Shown: one piece after another, positions 1 through 27,048 of the stretch
Layout: every line of letters begins with the position of its first letter
Numbering within the stretch: the stretch's first letter is position 1
IMG/VR virus record: IMGVR_UViG_3300027763_000168
Location: 1-31,112 of that record
DNA length: 31,112 nt
Strand: one strand, 5' to 3'
Source: a virus
Notes under the pieces: generated by a model
Database searches by the model: none
The model's input: the letters and a program-made list of their open reading frames with translations, nothing else
Told to the model about the DNA's origin: nothing
Position numbers and translations under genes: made by a program

Positions 1-623
1 AGGTCAAGTTCAAAACCCTGCAAATGGCGCACTTGCTGTGTGTAATTGGAGAAGTAGAGTTTGGATTTGCCACCAGAAGAATGCCAGATTTCAATAGACA
101 GGACGTTTGCACCATCGGTGCGGTATGACTTCTCGTCAATGCTTTCCAAAGGAATAGCACCCGTTCCTAGTTTGTATGCTTGTTTGATATCGTCACAACC
201 CAACAATTTGGACTGTAGCGTTTTTGCAACTTGTTCCCAAGATTCACCAGCCGCCATAGCAATAATAGGTTTGTCCCACTTCTTGCCTTTCCAACCTTTA
301 GGATACATGCCTGTTAGGTGGTAAGCAGTCTCATAGGTGGACGCAATGGTCTTTCCGGTACGGTTACCCGCAATCATCCCTCGGCGGGTGAAATGATTGC
401 CAGTTTCAAAAAAGTCAGTCTGATACTTAAATGGCCTAAACCATTTCAAAGCGTTGTACTGCATGTCTTTGGCAATAGTATCTCTTGCCGCCATCATCTT
501 GCGTAGCTGGTCAGAGTCCATTTGGTTGGTAGCCTTTTTGCCACCAGCCAACTTAACAAGATGTTTTAAGGCTCGATCTTTGTAGATCGGTTGGATGTAG
601 TCACTGGCTTCACTTTTTGCCAT
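1..623 (-). CDS. Terminase large subunit, N-terminal part (gene runs off the window)
   Basis: This is the motor ATPase that pumps phage DNA into the prohead. Only the first 207 codons are present; the nuclease domain lies beyond the left edge. A Walker A P-loop AGNRTGKT sits at residues 85-92, preceded by an aromatic-rich stretch (PFKYQTDFF) typical of the adenine-binding region of terminases. The segment IIAMAAGESWEQVAKTL follows as the next core beta strand. The ATG at 623 overlaps the end of the preceding small gene by 14 bases, so the two are translationally coupled. It is the last visible gene of the leftward packaging operon. The ATPase assignment is firm; the exact terminase subfamily is not resolved. 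Confidence 0.93.
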   Translation of the reverse strand, partial: MAKSEASDYIQPIYKDRALKHLVKLAGGKKATNQMDSDQLRKMMAARDTIAKDMQYNALKWFRPFKYQTDFFETGNHFTRRGMIAGNRTGKTIASTYETAYHLTGMYPKGWKGKKWDKPIIAMAAGESWEQVAKTLQSKLLGCDDIKQAYKLGTGAIPLESIDEKSYRTDGANVLSIEIWHSSGGKSKLYFSNYTQQVRHLQGFELD

Positions 624-798
624 ACAGGTCACGCATAGACAAAAGCAAATCAGCGGCAGAGGCTAAATAGTAAACGTCTTGAGGGGGTAGAGTCCGATCT
701 CCTTGAAGATCTTTCTGTAACCACTCAAGAGTCTTACGGGCGCAAACTTCTGCTTGAGCCGATAGCTTCTGACGAAAGACGGAAGATTGATCTTCCAT
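610..798 (-). CDS. Small hypothetical protein upstream of the terminase
   Basis: A 62-residue acidic/amphipathic helical protein (MEDQSSVFRQKLSAQAEVCARK...) of unknown function. The ATG at 798 shares bases with the TAA of the preceding gene (TAATG), which argues for this start over an upstream in-frame GTG at 807. The tail overlaps the terminase start. Its position directly before the large terminase would suit a packaging accessory factor, but no family motif is recognised. Confidence 0.75.
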   Translation of the reverse strand: MEDQSSVFRQKLSAQAEVCARKTLEWLQKDLQGDRTLPPQDVYYLASAADLLLSMRDLYGKK

Positions 799-2647: not shown

Positions 2648-3142
2648 TCACACTTTGCGAAGAGACTGCAAGAAATCATCTAATGCATCATCAGCAGACA
2701 CCTCTTCCTCTTTGTTCACGTTGTTAACGTGTTCAATCGAAATTATAGGCGCTCTTGAGGATTCAAAGGGGGCAAGCTTATCAGCAATCTTAGCCTTGTC
2801 CTTGATATCCAACTCATCAGACTGCATAGCATCAATCAAGACTTCCATTGCCGTCTTGAGTGGGGGTAGACCTTTGGCGGCACGTTCATCATTAAGCTTG
2901 TTAAACAAAGCGCCGTATTCAGTTACTCGGTTAACCACCGACTTAGGCCGACCAAGTGTGAATACCGGAACCTTTGGCTCCTTAGGTTCTTGCTTACCAG
3001 TAGCTAACTTCATTGCCTTTTGTTCAGCTTTCTTTCTCTGATAATAATCACGCTTCTTTTGTTTCTCTTCTTCACTGGTAACATTAGAATCTTGAGGACG
3101 AATATCTCCATATATTGCGTCATTGGGTTTAGGTATTTTCAT
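2648..3142 (-). CDS. Candidate terminase small subunit
   Basis: A 164-residue protein with a highly charged N-terminal coiled stretch (EEEKQKKRDYYQRKKAEQKAM, residues 24-45), a central region with GRPKSVVNRVTEYGALFNKL and a helical C-terminal part AMEVLIDAMQSDELDIKDKAKIADKLAPFESSRAP. The last pattern (a helix, short turn, then DKLAPF..SRAP) resembles the C-terminal helices of many small terminase subunits, and the gene lies upstream of the large subunit. No clear helix-turn-helix is seen at the N-terminus, so the call is tentative. Its ATG overlaps the previous stop (ATGA). Confidence 0.45.
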   Translation of the reverse strand: MKIPKPNDAIYGDIRPQDSNVTSEEEKQKKRDYYQRKKAEQKAMKLATGKQEPKEPKVPVFTLGRPKSVVNRVTEYGALFNKLNDERAAKGLPPLKTAMEVLIDAMQSDELDIKDKAKIADKLAPFESSRAPIISIEHVNNVNKEEEVSADDALDDFLQSLRKV

Positions 3143-3639
3143 TTCATTTCCTTTAATAATTCTGCAGTGCGTCCCCAGGCATATGAGCCATTAACAGTAA
3201 ACCCACGTTTCTTGTGAATCTTCATAAACCCATTATGCTCTGCTCTAATACTTGTTGAGCAGATAACCGGAATACCCCAGCTACTGGCCCACAATATATG
3301 CTGATCAATCATCTCGTTAAGTAACCTTACTCTGGTTCTAACCGGAAGACTTAAATCAAGGTGGTGGAACTTAGCATTGCTGATCTCTTCATTGGCATAT
3401 GTTGTATACCCACCACGGTCAAACCAACAGTACGCAACTAACGTATCCACATCCCTGCAAACAGCAAGAAACTCTCTGCCTTTGTCAAACAGTTGCATAG
3501 TAGCAGTAACCGTTACATGCTTTCTAAAAACGTTCCTGTCCCTCGTCAGTATGCCATCAGCCTCTTGCCCAAAGATAGTGTCTGCCATCTCCACAATGTC
3601 ATCTACGTCATCTAACGGATGTGCCAATCTCCATTCCAT
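3139..3639 (-). CDS. GNAT-fold acetyltransferase-like phage protein
   Basis: A 166-residue protein beginning MEWRLAHPLDD. The ATG at 3639 is chosen because AGGAGA stands six bases upstream; in-frame codons before it have no such site. The sequence has the GNAT order: a helix pair (VDDIVEMADTIFGQ), a beta strand with a catalytic-region bulge (FLAVCRDVDTLVAYCWFDRGG), a long helix (VRLLNEMIDQHILWASSWG) and the closing strand with IHKKRGFTVNGSYAWGR. T7-type internal virion protein A has a comparable fold, so it may be virion-associated rather than an enzyme. It is the first gene of the leftward packaging operon. Confidence 0.62.
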   Translation of the reverse strand: MEWRLAHPLDDVDDIVEMADTIFGQEADGILTRDRNVFRKHVTVTATMQLFDKGREFLAVCRDVDTLVAYCWFDRGGYTTYANEEISNAKFHHLDLSLPVRTRVRLLNEMIDQHILWASSWGIPVICSTSIRAEHNGFMKIHKKRGFTVNGSYAWGRTAELLKEMK

Positions 3640-3915
3640 ACATTCTCCTTGCAATGCCTGAATTGTAGCAACCAAAAAACTTTTAGGTAAAAAAATTTAT
3701 ACAGGGGCGCAAGTACTACATTCCTGCTTACCAATTCTTTGTATAAACCCGTGTATTCTGGCACTTTAACGAGGTTTCAGCATTGTTTGTAATGCTAATG
3801 TTTAGTTCTTTGTGCAGGATGAGTAGTGGGGGGGAAATGTTTTTGAATAAAAAGTGGGGATGGGTGAGCGGGCCCCCTATTTTCCGTCACCTTCCAGACC
3901 TACCCCCTCCTGGTT

Positions 3916-3978
3916 CTAGGGGGGTTATGAGGCGTTCTAGGGGGGTATTGCGCCTGGCTAGGGGGATGGTAGCCATGT
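3916..3978 (+). repeat. Three 21-bp-phased CTAGGGGG repeats (iteron-like)
   Basis: CTAGGGGG begins at 3916, 3937 and 3958, exactly 21 bases apart, so all copies face the same side of the helix (two turns). The first two copies share ten bases (CTAGGGGGGT). An inverted copy, CCCCCTA, lies at 3873-3879, and ACCCCCT at 3902-3908 can pair with the first repeat. The 13 bases after each motif are not conserved. Such phasing is typical of iterons or multi-site operators; which it is cannot be told from sequence. Confidence 0.75.
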
Positions 3979-4026
3979 GGGCCATTCCTCCTCTGTAGAG
4001 GGCTGTAATTTGTGTGTGAGCTAGAC

Positions 4027-4046
4027 CCCGATGATTTTCGGGTTTT
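4027..4046 (+). terminator. Weak rightward terminator-like hairpin
   Basis: CCCGA and TCGGG form a five-base stem around a six-base loop, followed by TTTT and then a pyrimidine-rich stretch. The stem is short, so it may be an attenuator or chance structure. It lies downstream of the G-rich repeat array and before the early promoter candidate. Confidence 0.3.
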
Positions 4047-4317
4047 CTCTGTTTTATGTTCTGTCTCTAGCCGTGCTATGGAAAGCCTATCTCTGTCTGT
4101 CTCTCTCCTCTGTAGAAGAGCTAATCAATGCCTTAGGTTTATCTTTTGTTTTTCTTTTCGTTCACACAATGGAATGTCATTCCCATATGCCTATATCTAT
4201 GCATTTATTGCATTCCTTATATGTTCACTTGAATGATGATCAAGTGCAATCTATCGTTCTAAGGGTAACTACTGATAGGGTTTTGGAGCTATCAATGAAA
4301 TCAACAACTTACAAGAG

Positions 4318-4343
4318 TTGGCACGTTTCTTCCCTGCTATATA
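4318..4343 (+). promoter_or_regulatory. Candidate sigma70 promoter for the rightward early operon
   Basis: TTGGCA (five of six to the -35 consensus) is followed, 14 bases later, by an extended -10 element TGC-TATATA; reading the -10 as TATATG gives a 16-base spacer. It lies about 60 bases before the first early gene, whose ATG has an AAAGGA ribosome site. A second, weaker candidate is TTGAAT-17-TATCGT at 4229-4257. Confidence 0.5.
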
Positions 4344-4403
4344 TGTGAAGGGGTCAATTTTTAGCCCTTCATTGATCAACTCAACTCAACTTAAAGGATC
4401 ACC

Positions 4404-4610
4404 ATGCCAAACTACACTACACAAAAAGCCCTTCGCGCAGCGTTTTGGGAAATTTTTCCTAATCTTTCAAAGCGCAAAATTCCAAACTATTCAAACATAC
4501 TAGGCTCTGATTACTTGGTTGACACTAGGGTCACTTGGTGTGATTGGATCGATTCTCTTGAACGTGATGGTGAAATCACGACAGCCCTCGCAGATCGTGC
4601 CACACTGTAA
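4404..4610 (+). CDS. First early-operon protein, unknown function
   Basis: A 68-residue soluble protein (MPNYTTQKALRAAFWEIFPN...) with basic N-terminal helices and an acidic, Trp-containing C-terminal half (VTWCDWIDSLERDGEITTALADRATL). A strong AAAGGATC ribosome site precedes it. Size, charge pattern and first position after the promoter resemble host-takeover or counter-defence proteins, which is inference only. Confidence 0.75.
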   Translation: MPNYTTQKALRAAFWEIFPNLSKRKIPNYSNILGSDYLVDTRVTWCDWIDSLERDGEITTALADRATL

Positions 4611-5060: not shown

Positions 5061-5819
5061 ATGCAAAATCCATATAAACTCATTCTCAAGTCATTAGGCT
5101 TAGAGTATCGCCCGATACTTGGAGAATCTTCAACTAAAACCATTAAAGGGGAAAAGATAGGATATCTTACGGGTATTGTCTATCTCGTTCCTGATGAGAC
5201 TTTATGCCCTTTAGCCCTTTTAGCGGGCTGTTTCCATGGATGTCTCAATACAGCGGGTAGAGGAGCATTCAATAGCGTACAAAAGGCTAGAAAAGCCAAA
5301 ACCCAATTTTTCTATGACCATCAGCAAGCCTTTTTATTGTCATTGTGCGCCGATGTATGGTCTATCCAAAGAAAAGCCCTTAGATTAGGCTTTAAGCCCC
5401 TTGTAAGACCCAATGGCACAAGTGATATCCCTTATGAGAATCTGATCATATGGGAAAACAAGAATTTGTTTCAGTTGTTTCCTGATGTTATGTTCTATGA
5501 CTATACAAAACATCCTTCACGTTCATTAGAGGGTAAGACGTTAAACAATTATGATTTAACCTATTCCTTTAGTGCTATCACGCCAAAGCCTATCAGTATC
5601 AAGGGTTTATCAAATAGGAATAACTCTAGAGTTGCTGTAGTGTTTCAGAAGCAAAGTGATATCCCTGATTCATTTAGGGGATGGGATGTTATTGATGGGG
5701 ATAACACTGATGTAAGGCATATTGAGCCAAAACAAGTAGTAGTGGCTTTATATGCTAAAGGTAAGGCTAAACACGACATAACGGGTTTCACTCAAATTAA
5801 AGGGGTTCACTATGCATAA
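5061..5819 (+). CDS. Gp88-like phage protein with a Cys cluster
   Basis: A 252-residue protein, the largest early gene. TLCPLALLAGCFHGCLNTAGRG near residues 48-69 gives C49, C57 and C61; the following KARKAKTQFFYDHQQAFL and the later PDVMFYDYTKHPSRSL and YDLTYSFSA blocks match, from memory, the order of motifs in phage Gp88-type proteins (a Cys-rich loop, a YTK strand, and an S-containing strand). That family is widespread and uncharacterised; the Cys triad suggests metal or iron-sulphur binding. An AAAGGAAAG ribosome site precedes the ATG, and its stop overlaps the next gene by eight bases. Confidence 0.7.
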   Translation: MQNPYKLILKSLGLEYRPILGESSTKTIKGEKIGYLTGIVYLVPDETLCPLALLAGCFHGCLNTAGRGAFNSVQKARKAKTQFFYDHQQAFLLSLCADVWSIQRKALRLGFKPLVRPNGTSDIPYENLIIWENKNLFQLFPDVMFYDYTKHPSRSLEGKTLNNYDLTYSFSAITPKPISIKGLSNRNNSRVAVVFQKQSDIPDSFRGWDVIDGDNTDVRHIEPKQVVVALYAKGKAKHDITGFTQIKGVHYA

Positions 5820-7154: not shown

Positions 7155-7427
7155 TTAACGTGATTGTAGGCCATCTAGCAGGCGTTGGATAGTGATGTTG
7201 AGGGCATCCATCTCATCCATGTTTTTTATTGCCCACATGCGCTTTTGCCCATGCCAACCAAGTAACGGTCCTTGGTGGCAAGATTTACACAAGGCAATGC
7301 AAGTGAATTGTCTGTGCTGCTTGACATGGTGGGCATCACTGGGTCCAGGCTCATCACATACTGAACAAGGTAATTCTTTGATAAGCGCCAAATGCAATCT
7401 CTCACGGGCGTTTAGCTTGTTGTTCAT
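7155..7427 (-). CDS. HNH/Ref-like putative nuclease
   Basis: A 90-residue Zn-finger nuclease-like protein. C21-x2-C24 and C47-x2-C50-H51 frame a DAHHV motif (H33, H34), followed by QGPLLGWHGQKRMW, the order found in phage HNH proteins of the Ref (P1 recombination enhancement) type. HH would supply the metal/general base. It sits in the recombination and replication operon next to a RusA resolvase. Its ATG overlaps the preceding gene's stop. Confidence 0.7.
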   Translation of the reverse strand: MNNKLNARERLHLALIKELPCSVCDEPGPSDAHHVKQHRQFTCIALCKSCHQGPLLGWHGQKRMWAIKNMDEMDALNITIQRLLDGLQSR

Positions 7428-25833: not shown

Positions 25834-27048
25834 TTATAGCTCCGAGGTTGCTGTCCAAGAGGTTTGAACTGCTTGAGTGGTGGAGGTTGTGTAGAAATAA
25901 AACCCATCAATTGCGCTGCCGCCTTGAGTGGTTGCAGCCGCACCGTCTACTTTTGTAAGAGTTGGAGCGGCTCTTTTTGTAACCTTAAATTGCGCTTGCA
26001 TTCCAAAATAAGTTGTTACAGCATTGGGTGTTGCCGCCCCAAAAAATGCACCACTGTATTCATAATACCGCTGGCAAAGTATCAACTCACGCCCATAGTC
26101 ACGAAAGTCAAAGCTGGTTGCTATTGAACCCTTTTCAAGCTGGACGCCTGTGATGTAGAAGGTAGCTCCGTTTGTGCCGACAACAGAAGTTGCGCCTGTG
26201 GCTGAACGAATATCAGAACCAGTCCATGCGCCAGCAGTACCGCTATATGTTGAACCCATACCAACACTTAACCACAAACGCAAACCAATTCCATTTGTTG
26301 CGCCAACCCATGTGCCAGAAGTATCCCCTGCAATGGTGACTGTTTTTTGTTCCCAAGTGTTTGCGGAACTGATTGTGTAACTAAATGCATAAGAACGATT
26401 TTGTGCGTTGTTTTGCAACCCCCCGCCAAATGTTCCAGTTAAGCTGGAACGAACCCAAAATGAAAAAGTAATTGTTTGTGCATTTGCTGTTCCCCAATTT
26501 AAATCGTAGAAATTAAAGCCCTCGATATATTGCCCAATGAAAAACAAATCTGTTGACCCAATGGAGTACGCAGAACTTGAAGTAACGCCAAGATAATTGG
26601 CAAACCCTACTGGTGGAGTTACAGAACCAGCATTTTGCTGAACAGTAAATTTTGAAGTTACAGACCCATATGCAAACCATCTATCAAGCGTGTATTGAAC
26701 CGAAGTGTTTTGCGTAACACTCGCCCCCGCATTCCTTTGGTCAATCACCATTGCACCATTGATGATGCGGTTTTTGAATCCAAAGGTGTTGGGTGCGCTT
26801 ACATAACCAGTTGTGGTCAGATTACCTGTAACAGTTTGATTCCCAGTAACAGTTTGATTCCCAGTAACAGTTTGATTGCCTGTAGTGCTGACAGCACCAG
26901 CAAAGGTAACACTTTGGTCAGTTCCAATGGTTACAGCCGTTGTATTGGCTCCTGTCTGAAGGACTAAAATACCCGAAGAGTCAGCACTTGACTTCAGGCC
27001 AGCCGTTCCACTGACCGTGCCGTTATCTGCACTGATGATTGTTGCCAT
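25834..27048 (-). CDS. Tail fibre protein with carbohydrate-binding-type domain
   Basis: A 404-residue protein. The N-terminal 70 residues are a virion anchor, followed by a triple tandem of NQTVTG (residues 58-75), a hinge, and from about residue 95 a beta-jelly-roll type domain (GAMVIDQRNAGASV; LDRWFAYGSVTSKFTVQQNA; FSFWVRSSLTGTF; LQLEKGSIATSF class). The domain is similar to carbohydrate-binding modules of phage fibres. It starts with MATIISADNGTVSGTAG. Confidence 0.75.
   Translation of the reverse strand: MATIISADNGTVSGTAGLKSSADSSGILVLQTGANTTAVTIGTDQSVTFAGAVSTTGNQTVTGNQTVTGNQTVTGNLTTTGYVSAPNTFGFKNRIINGAMVIDQRNAGASVTQNTSVQYTLDRWFAYGSVTSKFTVQQNAGSVTPPVGFANYLGVTSSSAYSIGSTDLFFIGQYIEGFNFYDLNWGTANAQTITFSFWVRSSLTGTFGGGLQNNAQNRSYAFSYTISSANTWEQKTVTIAGDTSGTWVGATNGIGLRLWLSVGMGSTYSGTAGAWTGSDIRSATGATSVVGTNGATFYITGVQLEKGSIATSFDFRDYGRELILCQRYYEYSGAFFGAATPNAVTTYFGMQAQFKVTKRAAPTLTKVDGAAATTQGGSAIDGFYFYTTSTTQAVQTSWTATSEL
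26825..26878 (-). repeat. Three near-identical 18-bp coding repeats
   Basis: Three consecutive 18-base units (CCAGTAACAGTTTGATTC or one to two variants) encode NQTVTG three times in the fibre. In-frame repeats of this kind are prone to gain or loss by slippage, changing shaft length. Confidence 0.8.

Follow-up and report, generated by a model that had tools for sequence, protein, structure and literature searches.

What process is served by three short G-rich blocks, spaced exactly 21 bp apart, between two gene modules of an uncultured freshwater virus? The window, meaning the whole stretch of 31,112 bases analysed, contains exactly three copies of CTAGGGGG, all on the plus strand, which start at 3916, 3937, and 3958. 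As described in the initial annotation, the array is accompanied by an inverted CCCCCTA (3873–3879), located 37 bp ahead of the first CTAGGGGG, and an inverted ACCCCCT (3902–3908). A repeat search of the window also pairs 3898–3908 with 3960–3970 in inverted orientation. In the reading that we favor, with a probability of about 0.65, positions 3840–4047 form the end of a podovirus genome of the LUZ24/phiEco32 type and serve as its packaging site, with the repeats inside the terminal repeat. This reading draws on an element that tracks the terminase genes, sits immediately ahead of their operon, and has matching GGGCCC boundaries on its two sides, an arrangement like that of LUZ24, tf, and phiEco32. 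The repeats are probably docking sites for genome cutting and packing rather than a replication origin.

The phased triple is not a product of chance. Among 2000 dinucleotide-preserving shuffles of 3676–4403, none contained any 8-mer tripled at an equal spacing of 10–60 bp. Other phased 8-mers of the window probably derive from a short repeated peptide, GNQTVT (26800–27000), in a minus-strand tail-fibre-like ORF at 25834–27048. A coding repeat, for which 21 bp would correspond to seven codons, is also ruled out. A 71-codon ORF (3783–3998) overlaps the array, but no reading frame can be conserved across relatives that differ by indels of 11, 3, and 1 bp. The region is intergenic.

The array is flanked by a minus-strand gene at 3139–3675 and a plus-strand gene at 4404–4610. 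The region forms the junction of two divergent modules, a minus-strand terminase operon and plus-strand genes starting at 4404, with the CTAGGGGG repeats about 240 bp upstream of the operon's first gene. Counting from the region, the operon sequentially encodes a 178-residue GNAT-like protein, a 164-residue candidate small terminase, several other proteins, and the large terminase:

3139–3675, minus strand: 178-residue GNAT-like acetyltransferase, first gene of the terminase operon (AlphaFold model; Foldseek GNAT matches, best E 4.4e-4)
2648–3142, minus strand: 164-residue candidate small terminase, assigned by position only, upstream of the large terminase
3–632, minus strand: N-terminal part of the large terminase (PHROG 2 large terminase, E 2.7e-6); the contig ends inside the gene

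A full-length homolog of the large terminase in relative L055 matches PHROG 2 at 3.4e-24, as well as Pfam Terminase_6N. The model of the 164-residue protein is all-helical and of low confidence, and fold and profile comparison gave no significant homolog of known function.

Relatives were collected from IMG/VR. A scan for the phased pair yielded 7 contigs with the same array, a search with the 178-residue protein yielded 80 loci, and a core-pattern search yielded 73 stretches. About 75 relatives carry a core of about 80 bp in the same intergenic place, composed of an A-tract, GGGAATGGGTGAGTGGGCCCCCC, and then TTCCAGYCCTACCCCC. The core consensus consists of GAAAAGTTTTTGTAGAAATTTTGGGAATGGGTGAGTGGGCCCCCCT, about 12–15 variable bases, and TTCCAGYCCTACCCCC, and is present in nearly all relatives whose contig reaches far enough. 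The following elements, unstranded unless a strand is given, are distinguished in the window:

3840–3869: outer half of the left boundary, A/T-tract TTTTTGAATAAAAAGT plus GGGGATGGGTGAGC, near-invariant in about 75 relatives
3870–3879: left GGGCCC centre and C-tract GGGCCCCCTA, invariant or nearly so in relatives
3892–3907: TTCCAGACCTACCCCC, on the inner side of the conserved left core and in inverted orientation to the G blocks
3916–3923, plus strand: CTAGGGGG block 1; most of 14 close relatives keep TTCTAGGGGGGT here
3937–3944, plus strand: CTAGGGGG block 2, 21 bp after block 1; TTCTAGGGGGGT invariant in the 14 close relatives
3958–3965, plus strand: CTAGGGGG block 3, 21 bp after block 2; about half of the close relatives have a degenerate copy, with the GGGGTAGTAGC part kept
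4023–4047: right boundary element AGACCCCGATGATTTTCGGGTTTTC, motif present in 58 of 75 relatives
3873–4025: predicted direct terminal repeat of about 153 bp, from the distance between the two GGGCCC-type centres

The whole element spans about 3840 to 4047, so the region initially delimited at 3829–3978 takes in only part of it. The core is single-copy per record in almost every relative. One 45-kb contig contains it twice, 42,031 bp apart, which is about one genome length. The left cut is predicted near 3872/3873, and 3840–3869, on the terminase side of this predicted cut, is a candidate recognition site for the small terminase.

A motif search finds GGGGCCCGATCACTTTTGGGGTTTT to the right of the core in most relatives. 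When scored with leave-one-out models, 58 of 75 relatives have a right boundary motif that exceeds the 99th percentile of shuffles; in the other 17 it is not found at this threshold. The left–right distance in the 58 relatives is 86–261 bp, with a median of 146 bp. In the window it is 154 bp in motif register and 153 bp by hand, and a direct repeat, TGGGTGAGCGGGCCCCCTAT and TGTGTGAGCTAGACCCCGAT, recurs 152 bp apart. Both boundaries share a GGGCCC-type centre in 58 of 75 relatives. The window's own right core is imperfect (AGACCCC), and the right cut is predicted near 4025/4026. The outer hexamer of the right boundary is identical to the reverse complement of the left one at 3.05 of 6 positions, compared with 1.50 in the control and 1.10 in direct orientation. 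Given this better fit to the reverse complement, the left and right boundaries are roughly inverted sites that bracket the array.

The core follows the terminase module. Among the loci retrieved by the early-side protein, a true core is present only where this terminase module is also present; where the early genes are conserved but the terminase is different, the core is gone. Locus L136 shares 88% identity with the window over 130 bp of the leader and 84% over the early gene, yet it is without the core and displays a different C/G-tract region and different neighbouring genes on the terminase side. These patterns assign the element to the packaging module and not to the early genes.

The different terminase-side region of L136 (1080–1330) possesses C- and G-tracts of its own, TTGGGGGGTCTACAG, CCCCCCGCCACCGCCCCCC, and CCTGGGGGGGGTAAACCC, and may be the corresponding packaging end in another module. 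The leader sequence CTATCGTTCTAAGGGTAACTACTGATAG (4253–4283), which has near-palindromic ends and precedes the early genes, lies in the stretch that is 88% identical in L136, where the terminase side is unrelated. It appears to be another conserved control element. In a DNA search of GenBank phages the region is unmatched, and the core and neighbouring proteins are matched in one relative only, MW202484. A single core-pattern match in bacterial genomes was judged to be due to chance, as no module protein matches there and the rest of the core is missing.

In an alignment of the 14 close relatives, the TTCTAGGGGGGT and GGGGTAGTAGC blocks are conserved and the spacers vary. Blocks 1 and 2 are 21 bp apart in the window and in close relatives L002, L003, L009, L026, L034, and L039, whereas the L001 spacings are 31 bp and then 21 bp. 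In a sister clade, blocks 1 and 2 are separated by 30–32 bp, and the next spacing is mostly 20–21 bp; over the whole alignment, blocks 2 and 3, where present, are mostly 20–22 bp apart. The boundary-to-boundary distance is about 153 bp in the window's clade versus about 161–165 bp in this sister clade. The sister-clade spacing is thus longer by about one helical turn, which would fit helical phasing, on few independent events. Over the spacings of all relatives there is no clear 10.5-bp preference (vector length 0.34–0.36 at every period from 10 to 11), so phasing is claimed for the close clade only. The constant 21-bp spacing with variable spacers that the initial annotation anticipated is seen in close relatives, but not in the sister clade; in distant relatives the spacing is unconserved.

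Conserved blocks, unconserved spacers, and an alternative spacing about one helical turn longer support a predicted array of protein sites phased on one face of the DNA. The cooperative one-face binding proposed at the outset gains from the same pattern; its attribution to replication iterons or a multi-operator promoter is not supported, since the element tracks the terminase genes. Among distant relatives, about one fifth to one quarter lack any G5 run at this place. The G array cannot be essential for packaging across the group, because many relatives are without it; it supplements, in some clades only, a boundary pair of wider occurrence.

The CTAG of the right boundary (GCTAGACCCC; 4021–4024) is located 105 bp, or exactly 5 × 21 bp, from the CTAG of block 1 (3916). 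By hand count, the CTAG–CTAG distance is also 105–106 bp in L039 and L009. The distance may reflect shared ancestry only.

Genome ends are known for several phages with a related large terminase. A tblastn search with the full-length large-terminase homolog retrieved 399 phage records, in which the best isolates have E values of about 1e-60 to 1e-54 and 29–32% identity. The matches include LUZ24-like Pseudomonas phages and Escherichia and Salmonella podoviruses. LUZ24 has annotated terminal repeats of 184 bp, both ends of which read GGGGAATATCCC; its terminase genes are at the right end on the minus strand and its early genes at the left end. The region in the window likewise lies between the terminase operon and the early genes, in a divergent layout. 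In phage tf the repeats are 186 bp long and their ends have been mapped, GATATCcc being the recognition core proposed for each end (PMC3517423). Phage Delta, which is close to PaP3, is reported to have a 182-bp terminal repeat and no cos (PMC8540360). The phiEco32 repeat is 193 bp, and both of its ends read GCT/AG.

Like LUZ24, tf, and phiEco32, the window has one short core at both predicted cut sites, 100–200 bp apart, here of the GGGCCC type. It also shares with LUZ24-like phages a related large terminase, the palindromic nature of the core, a C-tract at the repeat start, and G5 tracts near the right end of the repeat. Paired G5 tracts occur just before the right cut core in LUZ24, tf, and UFV-P2, in the last as GACTAGGGGGAATATCCC, which suggests that genome ends of this type repeatedly include such tracts. 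However, the window differs from LUZ24-like phages in its GGGCCC core, where theirs is AATATC or GATATC, in its three-block 21-bp array, and in a predicted repeat that at 153 bp is shorter than those of LUZ24, tf, and Delta, its ends being predicted and not mapped. The large terminase of phiEco32 is also related, but its core is different and it has no G array. The pac regions of SPP1 and SF6 resemble the window in having direct repeats near the small terminase gene, which is here a candidate only, and a model of DNA wrapped on the small-terminase ring has been described for them (PMC4737164). In contrast to the packaging predicted here, theirs is headful, and their repeats span promoters and the gene start. 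Individual repeats in SPP1 and SF6 had little effect on binding by the DNA-binding domain (PMC4737164).

Were the region a cos site, the terminase would make one staggered cut, at the left GGGCCC; the A-tract would be the small-terminase site, like that of HK97, and the G tracts would have an accessory role. Such a site would account for a left core that is far better conserved than the right boundary. In the core consensus, the A/T-tract lies about 15–30 bp from the GGGCCC on the terminase side, the cut position being assumed, similar to the HK97 small-terminase site and its cut, and the cut region is GC-rich in both (PMC11331095). Six contigs also end inside the left core, with ragged ends. 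We nevertheless consider a cos site unlikely, because a second, matching boundary is present and the nearest phages whose ends are known carry direct terminal repeats. The HK97 cos is a single cut with a 3′ overhang and no second boundary, its terminase proteins are not detectably related, and Delta did not bear out the cos claim made for its close relative PaP3. Phased direct repeats beside an A/T-rich stretch would suit an origin of replication, in which a phage initiator binds the repeats in the manner of iterons. Such an origin is very unlikely, given that the core goes with the terminase module rather than with replication genes, and is absent where the terminase differs; moreover, many relatives lack the repeats, and no clear skew switch is seen here beyond the effect of the divergent genes.

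The location between divergent transcription units, along with one weak promoter-like match on the minus strand (3691–3662), recalls an operator or promoter region controlling the terminase and early operons, with the blocks binding a phage regulator. Promoter matches are no more numerous than in shuffles, the core stays constant where the early genes vary, and the boundary pair is left unexplained, all of which makes this reading highly improbable, although such a function could be an added role of the region. A structured RNA formed by pairing of the complementary C and G tracts is barely credible: folding is no better than in shuffles on either strand, only one pair is found, with a single compensatory sequence in the core, and there is no Rfam match.

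Contig ends concentrate in the region. Of the contigs retrieved with the 178-residue protein, 34 end in the 6 kb upstream of the first gene of the operon, 16 of them within the nearest 800 bp. Two contigs break off in the right boundary, immediately ahead of TATC. As proof of termini, the ends are suggestive but confounded, and several full-length contigs are circular overlaps. The ends could be assembly breaks at sequence common to co-occurring strains.

At a terminase-cut genome terminus, the terminase complex would recognize the two inverted boundary elements in concatemeric DNA. The left boundary would comprise the A-tract plus GTGAnnGGG/CCC and the right boundary GGG/CCCnnTCAC plus TTTTGGGGTTTT, the slash denoting the predicted cut. 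The large terminase would cut at both GGGCCC centres, and about 153 bp (3873–4025) would then be repeated directly at the two ends of each virion genome. A ring-shaped small terminase may bind the A-tract and the G side of each boundary, by comparison with HK97 (PMC11331095). The three CTAGGGGG blocks would lie inside the repeat, in mutual helical phase and opposed to ACCTACCCCC. Most likely, the small terminase or a partner protein would assemble on them along one DNA face and position the cuts, and the phased blocks and the opposed CCTACCCCC would aid this assembly. The protein bound at the array is probably the small terminase.

The blocks might even act as a helically phased ruler, in which a small-terminase assembly spans both inverted boundaries on one face and sets the length of the duplicated end. 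This extension is doubtful; if it were true, the repeat length would shift by whole helical turns, as between the two clades compared above. The choice of two cut sites in phages with short terminal repeats is poorly known. The conserved two-part signature would make genome ends in this uncultured freshwater group predictable from sequence alone, and an array in which sister clades differ in spacing by about one helical turn offers a direct test of how packaging proteins assemble at a genome end.

Two further proteins of the window were noted. A 90-residue minus-strand protein (7155–7427) contains a CxxC pair and HH residues, has the look of a small HNH nuclease, and falls in PHROG 1588, of unknown function. 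A 252-residue protein (5061–5819) belongs to Pfam family GP88 and is widespread in IMG/VR contigs with unrelated terminases.
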